The translations under genes and the position numbers were made by a program. Source: Planctomycetota bacterium (lineage in GTDB: Bacteria > Planctomycetota > Phycisphaerae > Phycisphaerales > Phycisphaeraceae). Taken from it: a DNA stretch of 37,385 bases. Location: NCBI GenBank assembly GCA_024276075.1, contig JAJRXX010000009.1:1-37385 (forward strand), read 5' to 3'. The notes under the pieces were generated by a model. It ran no database searches and was not told the origin of the DNA. It saw nothing but the letters and a program-made list of their open reading frames with translations. Every line of letters starts with the position of its first letter. Position 1 is the first letter of the stretch. This document shows, piece by piece, positions 1,322-37,385 of the stretch.

Positions 1322-1423
1322 ATACCAATCACTATAAGTATGGTCCGACTGTCCTTGTACGCTACGATCCGATGCCACAAATACCTATGGGTATACGACG
1401 CGGTAAGCATACGTGAATGCGTA
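1322..1423 (-). repeat. Family B leader repeat, copy 1 (upstream of the phosphorylase gene)
   Basis: A 102-bp copy of a dispersed repeat. Its ATACCAAT end lies 26 nt from the phosphorylase start codon. Its far end carries an imperfect TACG...CGTA hairpin, preceded by the conserved CGACGCGGT block. It is closest to the copies at 6157 and 25228. Strand is given in the sense of the downstream gene; whether it is transcribed is unknown. Confidence 0.85.
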
Positions 1424-1537
1424 CCTAGACCCACTCCGACCCAAAACATGTGGGACAATCAAACTCCTCGCCCCGCGCCCCCCCCGGTCTAGTAAGTATC
1501 GACCAAATCTCGACCAACGATCAATACCACCGACCCG

Positions 1538-4817: not shown

Positions 4818-6143
4818 CTACAAATCGCCGCACGACGAGTTCCGCCGCACACCCGGACCAAATGTGATCGCGTCCTTGCCTTGCTGCTTTGACTGCAAAG
4901 CCATGCGGTCAGCTCGGTCGAGCAATTCTTCCGCACTCCTGCCATCCCACGGAAAGCTCGCCAGCCCTCCCGAAATCCGTAGCGTACCCGGTGCTTCGTG
5001 ACCCAGTTTCGGGAACCGGTGTGTGCTCACCGCCACTCGGAAACGTTCCGCGACCTTAACCGGGTCGTGCGGGTGGCTGCTGTTGGGCTGCCGGGGTCCT
5101 GCGGGGTCCCAGAAGATCACCGCAAACTCATCGCCTCCGATACGCGCCACCACGTCATGCTCACGCACCAGCGATTGCATCAGCCGTGCCGATTCTCGCA
5201 GAATATCATCTCCCGCCAGATGACCGTACTCGTCGTTGTAACGTTTAAAATCATCGATATCGAATACCAGCAACGACACGTAAAACCGCCTATCCGCAGC
5301 ACGCCCCAGGATCGTATTCAAAAAACGATTGAAATAACGCCGGTTCCACAGACCCGTTAATTCGTCTCGCATCGCCAACTGCGACAGCTCGTGCACATGA
5401 CGCTCCAACCCCAGCCATTTAGCCACCCAACCCGCCCAAGGATGCAACTGAGCCTGCGTCACCGACGACGACGCTGCATGCAAAAAACCTAGCTCCTGAT
5501 CACCGTGACGCAGCAACGCACACACATGATCAGCGGGAACATCCTCACGCCGGGCCGACCACTCCACCGTGCCCAAGCCACTGCGCTTCGATACGCACCG
5601 CAACACCGCCTCACCCACCACTCCACCAGCACCCCCAACTCCCCCCGCACACATCACCTGCTCGATCAGGTCCGCTTCGTCTTCGACAGACACCGCCCCA
5701 CCCGCCACTCCCACCGACACCTCGACAACCGACCCCACCGACGCTGACGCGCCTCTAGCCCCGCCCTGATCCACGCCGGGCTCAGCAGAACCAAACGCAC
5801 CAGCCAACACACGACCCAACGCAGCCGAATCGATCGGCTCGATCAAGTAATCATCAAAACCCGCATCAACCGCACGCACCGCCTGCAACCGATGCTCCGA
5901 TGACGTCGTCAGCAGCAACCGCGACCCCGGCGCCAACGATCGCAGCGCCTCCGCTGCCGGCTCGGGCGGATCGTCCAGGTCCTCCACACGACTAATCAGG
6001 ACCGTAGGCGGATCAGCAGCCATGTGACCAAGAGCCATCAGATAGTCAGGCACCGTGTGCACAGGACCCACCACGCCCACCGTCTCCAACAGACGGCCAA
6101 CCTTCCGCGTATGAGCCGTGTCTCCCACCAAAAGAACGTTCAT
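4818..6143 (-). CDS. GGDEF diguanylate cyclase with degenerate receiver-like N-terminus
   Basis: A 441-residue predicted c-di-GMP synthase. Residues 1-115 look like a response-regulator fold (MNVLLVGDTAHTRKVGRLLE..., later 'PPTVLISR') but lack a clear acidic phosphoacceptor cluster. A G/V/S-rich linker and a poorly conserved middle region, possibly GAF-like, follow. The C-terminal cyclase domain starts at 'LAMRDELTGLWNRRYFNRF' and has an intact GGDEF active site in 'RIGGDEFAVIF'. An RxxD inhibitory site (REHD) lies five residues before it, so product feedback is likely. The start at 6143 has GAGAGG 7 nt upstream. The longer frame to 6212 would translate the adjoining B repeat and is rejected. 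The next gene upstream (6330-6965) has a similar N-terminal pattern and may work with it. Confidence 0.93.
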   Translation of the reverse strand: MNVLLVGDTAHTRKVGRLLETVGVVGPVHTVPDYLMALGHMAADPPTVLISRVEDLDDPPEPAAEALRSLAPGSRLLLTTSSEHRLQAVRAVDAGFDDYLIEPIDSAALGRVLAGAFGSAEPGVDQGGARGASASVGSVVEVSVGVAGGAVSVEDEADLIEQVMCAGGVGGAGGVVGEAVLRCVSKRSGLGTVEWSARREDVPADHVCALLRHGDQELGFLHAASSSVTQAQLHPWAGWVAKWLGLERHVHELSQLAMRDELTGLWNRRYFNRFLNTILGRAADRRFYVSLLVFDIDDFKRYNDEYGHLAGDDILRESARLMQSLVREHDVVARIGGDEFAVIFWDPAGPRQPNSSHPHDPVKVAERFRVAVSTHRFPKLGHEAPGTLRISGGLASFPWDGRSAEELLDRADRMALQSKQQGKDAITFGPGVRRNSSCGDL

Positions 6144-6156
6144 CCTCGATCCTCTC

Positions 6157-6260
6157 ATACCAATCACCATAAGTATTGTCCGACTGTCCTTGTACGCGGG
6201 ATCAAATGTCACAAATACTTATGAATATACGACGCGGTCGAAACATACGCAGATGCGTAT
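6157..6260 (-). repeat. Family B leader repeat, copy 2 (upstream of the GGDEF gene)
   Basis: A 104-bp copy whose ATACC end touches the ribosome-binding site, 14 nt from the start codon. The outer end is a perfect hairpin ATACGCA-GA-TGCGTAT at 6245-6260. Inside, ATAAGTATTGT and ACAAATACTTAT can pair across roughly 30 nt. If transcribed with the gene, it would form most of the 5' leader. Confidence 0.88.
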
Positions 6261-6329: not shown

Positions 6330-6965
6330 TCACTGTGAGCAGTTCACATCCGAATCATTTAACTCGTCTTCGTCCCCAAAGCCTCGCCCGATCAGCATCA
6401 TCATTTCCTCTTGACTTAACACCGGCTCAGGCAAAAAACTCTCCGCAGATACAACCGGCCCACCCCCACCCATATCCGCACCTCCGGGAACATTCCCTTT
6501 ATCAACCACCCGATCGCCCCTGGTACGACCATCGCCATTAGAAGGTTCGCTTGCCTGGGAAACCCGCCCTTGATCAACCCCAGCCCCCTGACTCTTGCAT
6601 TGACACGCCCAATCACCGTTGACCCGCGACAACACAGGCCGACCCTCCGGGCCAGACGCGTCATAACGCCAACACTGCACCCGTGGGTAATACCGACGCA
6701 CCGCAGCCAATAGACCTCCCAATTGCTGCACACGATCAGGCTGATCGATTAGCAACACCGCCGTATCCAACCGCCCCAACGCTCCCATCACATACGCCGG
6801 GTGCGACACCACGTGCGGACGCCCTCCTCTACTCTTCAGACCACGCAACAACGACCCCAACGCGTTTCCACGCTGGGTCAGTAAAACCACAGGTTGACCA
6901 CCTTGACGCTCCATTTCCTTACGCAGCAAAGAGTGATGTGACAGTCGCATACCAAACATCTGCAC
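6330..6965 (-). CDS. Hypothetical protein with receiver-like N-terminal half
   Basis: I do not recognise a named family. The protein has up to 211 residues. Residues 20-100 alternate hydrophobic strands and helices in a response-regulator-like way ('PVVLLTQRGNALGSLLRGL', 'TAVLLIDQPDRVQQLGGLL'), similar in pattern to the N-terminus of the neighbouring diguanylate cyclase. I see no phosphoacceptor motif. Residues 125-180 are a low-complexity G/D/S-rich linker with one CQC. The C-terminus ends in an acidic helix, 'EPVLSQEEMMMLIGRGFG'. Start choices are GTG 6965, ATG 6959 or ATG 6950; none has a strong ribosome-binding site. It lies 186 bp upstream of the cyclase gene, separated by B copy 2, and has its own B copy upstream. 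A regulatory link to c-di-GMP signalling is an inference. Confidence 0.65.
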   Translation of the reverse strand: MQMFGMRLSHHSLLRKEMERQGGQPVVLLTQRGNALGSLLRGLKSRGGRPHVVSHPAYVMGALGRLDTAVLLIDQPDRVQQLGGLLAAVRRYYPRVQCWRYDASGPEGRPVLSRVNGDWACQCKSQGAGVDQGRVSQASEPSNGDGRTRGDRVVDKGNVPGGADMGGGGPVVSAESFLPEPVLSQEEMMMLIGRGFGDEDELNDSDVNCSQ

Positions 6966-7018: not shown

Positions 7019-7101
7019 ATACCAATTCAACTTGAAATTCGTGCGTATTTATGGACGCCCCGATATGAGAGACAATAGCTTACAACTCCTCCAACACGCT
7101 A
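7019..7101 (-). repeat. Family B leader repeat, copy 6, interrupted by a family A element
   Basis: It begins ATACCAATTC like the other B copies and follows copy 5 (36746) most closely, through the block CTCCAACACGC that corresponds to CTCCGACGCGC there. At the next TA the B sequence stops and a family A left end (TAGAGCAACTGGCG) begins, so the terminal hairpin is absent. It lies 54-69 nt upstream of the hypothetical gene, depending on that gene's start. Confidence 0.75.
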
Positions 7102-7190
7102 GAGCAACTGGCGTCATTAATCTTCATTGACCGGGTGGCACGGCTTGCTTGCAACCCGTGTGGTAGCGGACCACTCCGGTTGGTTGAGTT
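7100..7190 (+). mobile_element. Truncated family A element (type II core) inserted in a B repeat
   Basis: The left terminal repeat TAGAGCAACTGGCGTCATTA is followed by the same core as the 22529 copy, containing a D hairpin at 7139-7160 (here mismatched, CACGGCTTGC/GCAACCCGTG). After the hairpin the sequence runs into H-family sequence (GCGGACCACTCCGG). No right terminal repeat is found, so this copy is decayed or recombined. Confidence 0.72.
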
Positions 7191-8997: not shown

Positions 8998-9102
8998 TAG
9001 AGCACCTTGCATAAATAATCGCCATGTCAGTTCTGGAGTAGGGCAGGTCATTGACCTGCCTTCTTCTTGGGGAGATGGAGAATAATTACGCAAGTTGCTC
9101 TA
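8998..9102 (+). mobile_element. Family A MITE-like element, copy 1 (type I core)
   Basis: A 105-bp element. The left end, TAGAGCACCTTGCATAAATA, and the reverse complement of the right end, TAGAGCAACTTGCGTAATTA, form an imperfect terminal inverted repeat of about 28 bp. It is bounded by TA and centred on a perfect palindrome GGCAGGTCA-T-TGACCTGCC (9042-9060). It lies between the shc stop and the recA promoter. There is no coding capacity, so it would depend on a transposase elsewhere. Confidence 0.88.
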
Positions 9103-17304: not shown

Positions 17305-17409
17305 TAGAGCAATTTGCATGAATAATCTCCATGTCAGTTCTGGAGTAGGGCAGGTCATTGACCTGCCTTCTTCTTGGGGATATGGATAATAATTGCGCAA
17401 AGTGCTCTA
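17305..17409 (+). mobile_element. Family A MITE-like element, copy 2 (type I core)
   Basis: 105 bp, the same length as copy 1 and almost identical through the core, including GGCAGGTCA-T-TGACCTGCC. The ends are TAGAGCAATTTGC and, at the right, GCAAAGTGCTCTA, bounded by TA. It fills most of the 128-bp gap between queC and the acetyltransferase gene and may affect their transcripts. Confidence 0.88.
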
Positions 17410-22472: not shown

Positions 22473-22530
22473 CCTCCAGGGGAGAGGACCGGGGTGAGGG
22501 TTGTGTCTTCGGCCACGTTTCAATTTGTTA
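22473..22530 (+). repeat. Family C repeat, copy 2, split by a family A insertion
   Basis: The first palindrome arm is shortened. GGGGTGAGGGTTGTGTC and CACGTTTCAATTTGTTA are present. The tail ATACCAACCCACCCC resumes after the A element, at 22655. Confidence 0.82.
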
Positions 22531-22654
22531 GAGCACTTGGCGTAATTAATCTCCATTGACCGGGTGGCACGGCTTGCTTGCAAGCCGTGAAATACAGATG
22601 TTTGTTACACCTGCGGTCCAATCAAGATGGCGAATATTGACGCCAGTTGCTCTA
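22529..22654 (+). mobile_element. Family A MITE-like element, copy 3 (type II core), inserted in a C repeat
   Basis: 126 bp, bounded by TA. Left end TAGAGCACTTGGCGTAATTA; right end, reversed, TAGAGCAACTGGCGTCAATA. The core differs from copies 1 and 2 and holds a perfect D-type hairpin, CACGGCTTGC-TT-GCAAGCCGTG (22568-22589). The flanks AATTTGT and ATACCAACCCACCCC match the uninterrupted site at 14571-14592, so the insertion point and TA duplication can be read directly. Confidence 0.9.
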
Positions 22655-25227: not shown

Positions 25228-25331
25228 ATACCAATTGCCATTAGCATTTTCCTAATGTTCTTGTACGCGGGAACAGATGTTACAACTACTTATAGATATG
25301 CGACGCGGTCAAAACGCACGCGGATGCGTGC
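25228..25331 (-). repeat. Family B leader repeat, copy 3 (lipB end / upstream of glycosyltransferase)
   Basis: 104 bp. The terminal hairpin is GCACGC-GGAT-GCGTGC (25316-25331), differing from copy 2 by two compensatory pair changes. The repeat supplies the stop codon and about the last 15 codons of lipB and lies 43 nt upstream of the glycosyltransferase start. Confidence 0.86.
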
Positions 25332-26008
25332 AGTTGGCTCCGCATCGAACCCACCAACGCCTCCTTCACCTGCTCCATCGCAGGCACCCGGTCGCCCAGT
25401 ATCTTCGCCAAGCTCGTCACACCACACCCCGCCAGCCCGCAAGGCACAATCAACTCAAAATGCGCCATCTCCGGGCACACGTTCAGCGCTAACCCGTGCA
25501 TCGCCACACCCCGTCGCACCCGCACGCCCAGCGCGCACAGCTTCGCACCGTCACCCGCGCCTCCGTCAACCCCACACGCACCCGCCCACACACCCGTTAG
25601 TCCGTCACGCCGCCACGCCTTCACACCCAATACACCCACCGCATCGATCACCACCGCTTCGAGCAGACGCATGTACCGCCCCACATTCAGACCCAGCCCA
25701 CCCAAACGCAAAATCGGATACGCCACGAGCTGACCAGGCCCGTGATACGTCACGTCGCCCCCCCGATCCGTATCCTGAATATCGACACCAAGCTCCGCTA
25801 ACCGTTCCGCTCCGACCAATACGTGCCTCGCCGCGTCTCGGCGCCGACTGACCGTAACCACAGGGTCGTGCTCCACCAGCAGCAGCGTCTGCGGGCCCGT
25901 CCCGTCCACCACGCGCCCGTGCACCTCTCGCTGCAACGCCGCCGCATCCACATACGACATCCGCCCCACGTCCTCGACCACAAATTCTTCTGCACCCTGC
26001 AACGACAT
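25286..26008 (-). CDS. lipB: Octanoyltransferase LipB
   Basis: A 240-residue enzyme moving octanoate from acyl carrier protein to lipoyl domains of 2-oxoacid dehydrogenases and glycine cleavage H protein. Motifs: 'LLVEHDPVVTVSRR', the family signature 'RGGDVTYHGPGQLVAYPI', the catalytic Lys in 'KLCALGVRVRRG', and the catalytic Cys in 'FELIVPCGLAGCGVTSL'. ATG 26008 (MSLQGAEEF) has GGGAG 5-6 nt upstream; the longer frame would run into the divergent lpxA gene. The C-terminal ~15 residues are encoded by B copy 3, so the natural end may have been altered by the repeat. lipA is not in the window. Confidence 0.95.
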   Translation of the reverse strand: MSLQGAEEFVVEDVGRMSYVDAAALQREVHGRVVDGTGPQTLLLVEHDPVVTVSRRRDAARHVLVGAERLAELGVDIQDTDRGGDVTYHGPGQLVAYPILRLGGLGLNVGRYMRLLEAVVIDAVGVLGVKAWRRDGLTGVWAGACGVDGGAGDGAKLCALGVRVRRGVAMHGLALNVCPEMAHFELIVPCGLAGCGVTSLAKILGDRVPAMEQVKEALVGSMRSQLHASACVLTASHIYK

Positions 26009-26114
26009 TACAACTCCCAACCCACGCACACGCACGCACGCACGCACCGTGGTGGTCACACCTAGATGTCCTATGATAGCCCCCGTCATCCTCCCGTTGA
26101 CAGGAGCACACCCC

Positions 26115-33993: not shown

Positions 33994-34097
33994 ATACCAA
34001 TTCAAATTAATACTTGTGCGGTGTCTACGAACACGAAAACAGGGCAGACAATAACTTACATCACTTACGACGCGATAGAATTATACGCAATGCGTAT
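33994..34097 (-). repeat. Family B leader repeat, copy 4 (upstream of comEC)
   Basis: 104 bp. The terminal hairpin ATACGCA-A-TGCGTAT is perfect (34083-34097). It belongs with copies 5 and 6 in its middle part. The near end is 84 nt from the TTG start of comEC, the longest distance of the set. Confidence 0.83.
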
Positions 34098-36745: not shown

Positions 36746-36849
36746 ATACCCATCCCACTTGAAACTCGTGCGTGTTTACGAACGCGGGATGGTGACAAAT
36801 AATTAACTCTCGACACCTCCGACGCGCTAAAAGCATACGCAACGCATAT
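36746..36849 (-). repeat. Family B leader repeat, copy 5 (upstream of the TPR-methyltransferase)
   Basis: 104 bp, ATACC end 19 nt from the start codon. The terminal hairpin at 36835-36849 has one mismatch (ATACGC/GCATAT). The CGACGCGCTAAAAGC block is the intact version of the site broken by an A element in copy 6. Confidence 0.83.
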
Positions 36850-36922: not shown

Positions 36923-37133
36923 ACTTAGCCGCAGATGATCACACCCCTGACACCCGGTCCCTGTAGGCCCAAGCCCGCCCGGACAATCTTCTCCCTCTCC
37001 CTCACAGGAAGAGGGTTGGGGTGAGGGTCGAGTTTCCGACCACGTTCATTTTATGAAATACCGAACACGCATCCCAACGCATGGGACCACACCAACCGAT
37101 CCATTTAGCCCCGCGTGAATACACGCGGGGCAC
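36923..37133 (+). repeat. REP-like mosaic: decayed E, F, family C copy 6, G, E
   Basis: A decayed E at 36923-36953; F at 36963-36987; C at 36992-37068 with a diverged tail; G at 37072-37086 (TCCCA-ACGCA-TGGGA); E at 37104-37133 (CCCCGCGTG-AATA-CACGCGGGG). It leads directly into the 58-bp array. Confidence 0.85.
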
Positions 37134-37385
37134 CCCATCCATCGGGTGACACGGGTTGCTTGTCTGCCAGGGGCACCCCATCCGTCGGGTGACACGGGTT
37201 GCTTGCAACCCGTGTGCTTGTCTGCCAGGGGCACCCCATCCGTCGGGTGACACGGGTTGCTTGCAACCCGTGTGCTTGGGTGCCAGGGGCACCCCATCCG
37301 TCGGGTGACACGGGTTGCTTGCAACCCGTGTGCTTGTCTGCCAGGGGCACCCCATCCGTCGGGTGACACGGGTTGCTTGCAACCC
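37131..37385 (+). repeat. 58-bp tandem array built on the D hairpin, runs off the window
   Basis: CACCCCATCC recurs at 37131, 37174, 37232, 37290 and 37348. Three periods are exactly 58 bp. The first is 43 bp and lacks the right half of its hairpin. Each full unit has the D palindrome CACGGGTTGC-TT-GCAACCCGTG and a conserved spacer with CCATCCGTCGGGTGA. Unit 3 has GGGTGCCAG where the others have GTCTGCCAG. Reading frames across it are repeat translations, not genes. Confidence 0.93.

Follow-up and report, generated by a model that had tools for sequence, protein, structure and literature searches.

A 102-104-bp repeat family in a Planctomycetota genome is very probably a MITE mobilized by IS630-related transposases

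What kind of element recurs, at almost constant length, in front of unrelated genes of a planctomycete genome? The window, the whole 37,385-nt stretch of DNA analyzed here, carries such a repeat at positions 6157-6260 and related copies elsewhere (Table 1). A sequence-only reading proposed that it is a cis-regulatory RNA or a promoter-carrying repeat that spreads a regulon. Our analysis indicates that it is very probably a non-autonomous MITE of ~102-104 bp, moved in trans by IS630-related (Tc1/mariner-like DDE) transposases. The proposed spreading thus holds, being that of a transposable element, but a regulon for the whole family does not.

The six copies in the window lie where that reading had placed them, all on the minus strand, except that the copy starting at 1322 extends to 1424, one nucleotide past the stated end of 1423. 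They are also the only window copies among the matches listed by the covariance-model genome searches. The five full-length copies measure 103-104 nt (102-104 nt had been claimed) and show the described layout of a tip hairpin (ATACGCAT..GCGTAT), a CGCGTCG box, a TTGT block and a GGTAT end; copy 36746 has TTATTTG in place of the TTGT block. Pfam bears out the labels given to the neighboring genes (phosphorylase, GGDEF, GT87, Competence/ComEC, TPR plus methyltransferase), with no Pfam match for the presumed companion of the cyclase at 6330-6965. The claimed spacing of 14-84 nt to the next start depends on the choice of start codon: our own gene caller puts the three copies of subfamily B1 at 13, 25 and 42 nt, and for copy 33994 the spacing is 83 nt with a TTG start and 203 nt with the caller. 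The window closes with a 58-bp tandem array of the GGGTGACACGGGTTGCTTGCAACCCGTG palindrome (37099-37385) that reaches the contig end.

Table 1. Repeat copies and an adjoining feature in the window, followed by genomic copies with a clear paralogous empty site.
Feature	Position	Strand	Remarks
MITE copy B1, full length	6157..6260	-	13 nt from called start of GGDEF gene 4818-6143; flanks CGA/TGA
MITE copy B1	1322..1424	-	25 nt from called phosphorylase gene start
MITE copy B1	25228..25331	-	tip hairpin pairing kept by compensatory changes (GCACGC..GCGTGC)
MITE copy B2	33994..34097	-	TAA/TAA target duplication, upstream of comEC
MITE copy B2b	36746..36849	-	TGA/TGA target duplication, upstream of TPR-methyltransferase gene
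Truncated MITE copy B2b	7019..7101	-	5' end lost where family A repeat end abuts
Family A terminal repeat (another MITE, TA duplication)	7099..7127	+	abuts truncated copy 7019..7101
Copy with clear empty site	C40:37686		8 matches, best identical over 94 nt
Copy with clear empty site	C74:38121
Copy with clear empty site	C24:57536
Copy with clear empty site	C41:8938
Copy with clear empty site	C40:32771
Copy with clear empty site	C24:12277
Copy with clear empty site	C65:48654
Copy with clear empty site	C55:51043
Copy with clear empty site	C7:67165
Copy with clear empty site	C49:31652
Copy with clear empty site	C55:62479
Copy with clear empty site	C4:30873

The repeat is abundant in its own genome, a 95.8% complete MAG of 2.88 Mb on 77 contigs. 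BLAST with one copy gave 60 candidate places, 40 of which were scored. A covariance model built from 31 copies (R1) listed the best 150 of 714 candidates and a model of a second subfamily (R2) at least 148, many of them common to both. Their union comprises at least 191 places, including at least 174 of 96-112 nt and at least 98 of exactly 104 nt; it excludes about eight low-scoring or edge R2 fragments and merges two fragments at C17:12614-12842. There are 97 occurrences of the right-end pattern GATTGGTATNA and a single one of its reversed form, a recurrence far beyond chance. Subfamily B1 (46 full copies examined) has the tip ATACGCATCCGCGTAT and the box TTTTGACCGCGTCG, B2 has the tip ATACGCATTGCGTAT and the box AGCGCGTTG, and B2b is a relative of B2. 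Seven consensus sequences of the family share only 47-75% pairwise identity, yet every one is 102-104 nt long.

The family was met in three planctomycete MAGs only: its own, Dive100_bin2.50 (G016) and NORP295 (G415, labelled Phycisphaeraceae). A search of 40 relatives with R1 under stricter filters matched Dive100_bin2.50 alone. Across 397 class-level genomes, an exact pattern occurred 64 times in the own genome, 25 times in Dive100_bin2.50 and once in each of four others, where the single matches have no hairpin; the reversed control gave 0. An exact pattern scan of contigs from 84,980 species, which may omit records close to the window's own genome, returned 11 stretches, all from Dive100_bin2.50 and NORP295, and the tip pattern occurs 59 and 36 times in these two MAGs (control 0). 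There were 0 matches to the family in viral contigs and none to phages for one B2 copy, and the B4 consensus gave a single chance match of 21 nt to plasmids.

Several lines of evidence identify the copies as products of transposition. Their ends are exact and their flanks unrelated. Each terminus has an imperfect inverted repeat of ~27-32 nt, comprising a tip (TACGCAT.. left, TACCAAT.. right) and an inner box near nt 20-28. Among the 135 copies with a length of 98 nt or more, 98 have a T-N-A with the same N on both sides, where 38.8 are expected and the maximum in 20,000 shuffles is 60. By subfamily, the N is identical in 64/76 copies of B2 (22.7 expected), 9/12 of B2b (3.4) and 24/46 of B1 (12.0). 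This excess over the shuffles means that the target is TNA and that it is duplicated upon insertion, giving TNA/TACGC...GGTA/TNA. IS200/IS605-like and REP-type mobility were rejected because of this duplication.

Empty sites were sought by joining the flanks of each copy and searching for the joined sequence. Junction-spanning matches were found for 24 copies and judged by reading; at least 12 of these are clear paralogous empty sites (Table 1), and the remainder are partial, doubtful or artefacts. Nesting occurs both ways, with other MITEs inside copies and copies inside other MITEs. Family A elements sit at the same TATTA spot of the B2 right end in four copies (C25:53323, C39:16484, C63:9552 and C57:27622), and this spot is a hot spot for nested insertion of family A. 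Within the window, family A repeats lie at 8998-9102, 17305-17409 and 22528-22654, with ends TAGAGCA..TTGCG.AATTATT and a TA duplication. Their end, TAGAGCAGATTGCGTGAATAATTGCCC, is also found at a resident IS630 transposase (C45:76151-76579 and flanks, locus L270), which makes family A a second IS630-type MITE family whose likely partner is present.

The inner boxes change together at both ends in several groups, as judged by eye (GCGCG/CGCGC, CCCG/CGGG, TTGTCC/GGACAA and TTGACCG/CGGTCAA), with a poorer fit in B1, B2b and B5. We infer from this pairing that the inner boxes are putative transposase binding sites; the enzyme would bind there and cut at the tip. Insertion takes place at TNA and duplicates these three bases.

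Which enzyme might act in trans is suggested by elements with similar ends. Matches to Pfam DDE_3 (PF13358) led to an IS630-type element of 1,257 bp in the own genome (C74:1240-2496), with the left end ATACGCATTCATCTTAGTTCCAGCGCG, the reversed right end ATACGCATTCACCTTAATAACAGCGCT and TTA on both sides. Its own two ends are alike at 24/32 positions. The left ends of B2 and of this element agree at 25/32 and the right ends at 19/32, a fit equalled by none of 2,000 shuffles. The element is broken: its frame is interrupted and a family A MITE has inserted into it. The own genome, a 95.8% complete MAG, showed no intact copy. A second IS630-type element, of 1,194 bp and flanked by TGA at one end and by TAA at the other, occurs in NORP295 (L272); its ends agree with the B3 and B6 right ends at 23-24/32 (0/2000 shuffles as good). 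The protein pieces of the two elements are ~40-67% identical over the pieces. They match the NCBIfam IS630 model (NF033545) at 5e-23, 1e-11 and 3e-22; as fragments, all stay under the curated cut-off for full-length proteins. In the genome search both loci exceed the PF13358 cut-off.

The end matches exceed nearly all shuffles for B2, B2b, B3 and B6. For B1 they are weak: its ends agree poorly with both elements (11-15/32), and an autonomous element with B1-type ends was not found. The own genome has 33 unmatched right-end hits, of which 10 are R2 matches and 23 are further, nested or remnant copies or chance, with no autonomous element among them. Tips without a nearby right end at loci L224, L232 and L242 were rejected as partners, being isolated tips or parts of truncated copies, and L246 proved to be a full copy carrying a low-complexity insert. 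On C68, a Cas9-like ORF (L275:481-1626; Pfam Cas9_a, 8e-9) lies beside a truncated IS630-type transposase end at the contig edge.

A transposase of the IS5/IS1031 type would be another possible mover, since IS1031 members are described as targeting TNA and making 3-bp repeats (PMC12016507). The own genome has a single such gene, an IS5-like transposase at C6:5-514 (L183; DDE_Tnp_1, and also the one DDE_Tnp_4 match), which is cut by the contig start and perhaps represents a multi-copy element lost in assembly. It was rejected as a partner since it lacks the family ends. PF01609 matches once in the own genome, 16 times in Dive100_bin2.50 and 8 times in NORP295; in the own genome, PF13359 matches once and PF13340 and PF13586 have 0 matches. 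The insertion sequences whose ends do match are of the IS630 type. This match largely refutes mobilization by an IS5/IS1031-type enzyme, which we consider extremely unlikely.

Mobilization in trans by an IS630-type enzyme thus appears the best account of the family, with one atypical trait. Published descriptions of IS630-linked MITEs give a TA duplication (PMC2229807, PMC6267812), so a TNA duplication is unusual for such an enzyme. Here TNA is duplicated in B1, B2, B2b, B3 and B6, and TA in B4/B7. Among the 24 distinct TACCC-tipped copies of Dive100_bin2.50 and NORP295, 18 have T before and A after, and none has an identical N, indicating a TA duplication; the TACGC-tipped copies of the same MAGs have an identical N in 13/19 cases, one of the 19 (L180) being a chance match. 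Two copies with a TACGC tip and the interior of the TA group (L134, L238) show t..a, suggesting that the type of duplication goes with the interior rather than with the tip. Two other copies, L243 with a TACCC tip and a B6-like interior and the B3-like L261, also show t..a and do not fit that rule, which is only a lead with two cases for it and two misfits. By title, a literature search on IS630 with TNA found no work on the subject. In this IS630-related family one group duplicates TNA and a sister group with the same 103-nt layout TA, which offers a natural case for studying how the cut spacing of a DDE transposase can change.

The choice of target also shapes where copies come to lie relative to genes. 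TAA and TGA are themselves TNA sites, and by position an insertion into a stop codon restores the stop. There were 101 copies flanked on both sides by TNA and by a gene; 96 of them were usable, and 23 of these are inserted exactly in the stop of a neighboring called gene. Even use of the TNA sites of each gap predicts 8.6 (sd 2.2; 0/20,000 simulations as high). A looser rule yields 30 genes of 124-839 aa, with the ATACG end at the stop in 15/30. The targeting of TNA thus lets insertions reuse TAA and TGA stops without harm.

None of 147 full copies lies inside a called gene, although 71% of TNA sites are coding; genes were called by our own scripts and not taken from an annotation. This is a weak test because an insertion would itself split the ORF. 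When the junctions were healed, 0/147 copies had in-frame called genes on both sides and 7/147, including 25228-25331, on one side only; these seven may be located in the terminal part of a gene. The ORF upstream of that copy (25286-26089) has its last ~14-15 codons and stop inside the repeat, and with the junction healed its frame would continue for 49 codons. The lack of copies between in-frame halves suggests that gene-splitting copies are removed by purifying selection. Since copies are confined to short intergenic gaps, their placement beside gene starts is mostly a by-product.

For the regulatory proposal, the gap types of 160 of the at least 191 places were examined: 86 are codirectional, 35 divergent, 29 convergent and 10 at edges with no gene on one side. 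The sequence-only reading had noted an absence from convergent gaps; among the 150 classifiable family copies, 29 are convergent. It also had the GGTAT end facing a gene start. Compared with random TNA sites and random orientation within the same gaps, this end faces a start in 78 of 137 copies (72.2 +- 4.4 expected), so there is no overall bias, and a start lies within 100 nt in 34 (30.8 +- 4.0), like random placement. In codirectional gaps the GGTAT end points towards the start in 49/86. No Rfam family matches at the gathering threshold. The long stem of B1 (CATAAGTATT/AATACTTATG) shows no covariation, with 375/460 paired cells against 371.8 in shuffles, and singletons in the conserved motifs of B1 and B2 are not clearly depleted relative to the linkers. 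The tip hairpin has compensatory changes in 3/6 pairs, a pairing that transposition would also conserve. A regulon or leader RNA for the family as a whole was rejected, given the convergent copies and the lack of orientation bias, of covariation in the long B1 stem and of clear singleton depletion.

The location upstream of genes is a different matter when subfamilies are separated: it holds for the old subfamily B1, with 0/55 cases in convergent gaps, and fails for the family, as B2 is convergent in 28/81. B2b is convergent in 1/14, and B1 differs from B2 at a Fisher probability of 1e-7. The 55 B1 cases count fragments of one copy separately (full copies alone, 0/46), and the split was noticed after the fact. 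With stricter gene sets, 1-2 B1 and 27-31 B2 copies are convergent (Fisher 2e-6 to 9e-8). Of eight other repeat sets, seven have 27-60% of their copies in convergent gaps, for example A105 (12/20), A168 (9/21) and GGGTGGCAC (15/38), and the eighth, a small set, is 0/5. Dive100_bin2.50 and NORP295 together have 5/29 distinct copies in convergent gaps, too few to gauge the B1 pattern.

This absence, robust to gene-calling thresholds (0-2 copies), speaks for a cis-regulatory RNA or promoter repeat that forms a regulon by acting in one orientation on the downstream gene. Two trends go the same way and are non-significant: codirectional B1 copies are on the strand of the genes in 27/42 cases (p 0.09), and in B1 as a whole the GGTAT end faces a start in 32 against 27.0 +- 2.9 expected (6% of simulations as high). 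B1 nevertheless occurs in both orientations, no orientation bias appears overall or by distance, and transposition accounts for the family. Together with the stem, singleton and Rfam results, this makes a one-orientation regulon highly unlikely.

Confinement to non-coding DNA does not explain the absence of B1 from convergent gaps, which may stem either from a preference at insertion or from the selective retention of copies close to gene starts. B1 is the older subfamily, with a perfect TNA duplication in 15/46 copies against 60/76 in B2 and a nearest-neighbor divergence of 13.8% against 5.8%. An older MITE that is missing from convergent gaps could be one whose copies were kept only where useful near a gene start, by piecemeal exaptation, and lost elsewhere with age. 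Within B2, however, no age-dependent loss was seen: the oldest third is convergent about as often (8/25) as the youngest (10/25), which argues that age alone does not remove convergent copies, and B1 shows no sign of constraint after insertion. We regard retention of this kind as possible, if rather unlikely.

We speculate, with better but still tentative grounds, that B1 was moved by a different transposase that favors promoter-side gaps, that of B2 having no preference or favoring 3' gaps. The gap types of the two subfamilies differ sharply, as do their inner boxes (TTGACC / GGACAA in B1, GCGCG / CGCGC in B2), and the B1 ends do not match the insertion sequence that matches B2. Against this, both subfamilies duplicate TNA, no autonomous element of the B1 type was found, and the positions of B1 within its gaps resemble those of random TNA sites. 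It is doubtful, though conceivable, that B1 is, originally or by later change, a 5'-region element whose copies, in whichever orientation, are retained or placed solely upstream of genes and act there, with B2 filling stops and convergent gaps. If true, a mini-transposon would have seeded a control layer linked to gene starts. The contrast between B1 and B2 in one genome is a clean and testable case for separating targeting from selective retention.

As a MITE family, the repeat can be set beside several published systems. The IS1031 subgroup of IS5 has the TNA target and 3-bp duplication in common with it, but the transposase family and the ends differ (PMC12016507). SMR-A of Haloquadratum walsbyi likewise has ~110-bp elements in many copies and in families without sequence similarity; as described, it makes no target duplication, inserts in palindromes of other elements and has a mobilization called enigmatic (PMC3119063). 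MITEAba12 (113 bp) resembles the family in its constant length, ends in common with a resident insertion sequence and no coding capacity, but it is attributed to ISAba12 and makes 9-bp duplications (PMC6382973). MITEPlu5 / MITEEc1 (ERIC) of enterobacteria, with which the likeness is judged by the published description, is non-coding, forms a strong hairpin and has hundreds of copies of near-constant 123 bp; its ends are related to IS630-type transposons, with CCC near the tip and a TA duplication (PMC6267812). The B4/B7 copies of the two other MAGs are similar in their TACCC tips and TA duplication, whereas B1, B2, B2b, B3 and B6 differ in duplicating TNA, as does the family in its length of ~102-104 nt and its occurrence, restricted here to three planctomycete MAGs. 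RUP of Streptococcus pneumoniae (107 bp) has a TA target, and no sister subfamilies with a different duplication are described in the account cited. Like the family described here, it has ~100 intergenic copies of ~105 bp with short inverted repeats common to a resident IS630-type element, and IS630-Spn1 is its proposed mover (PMC2229807).
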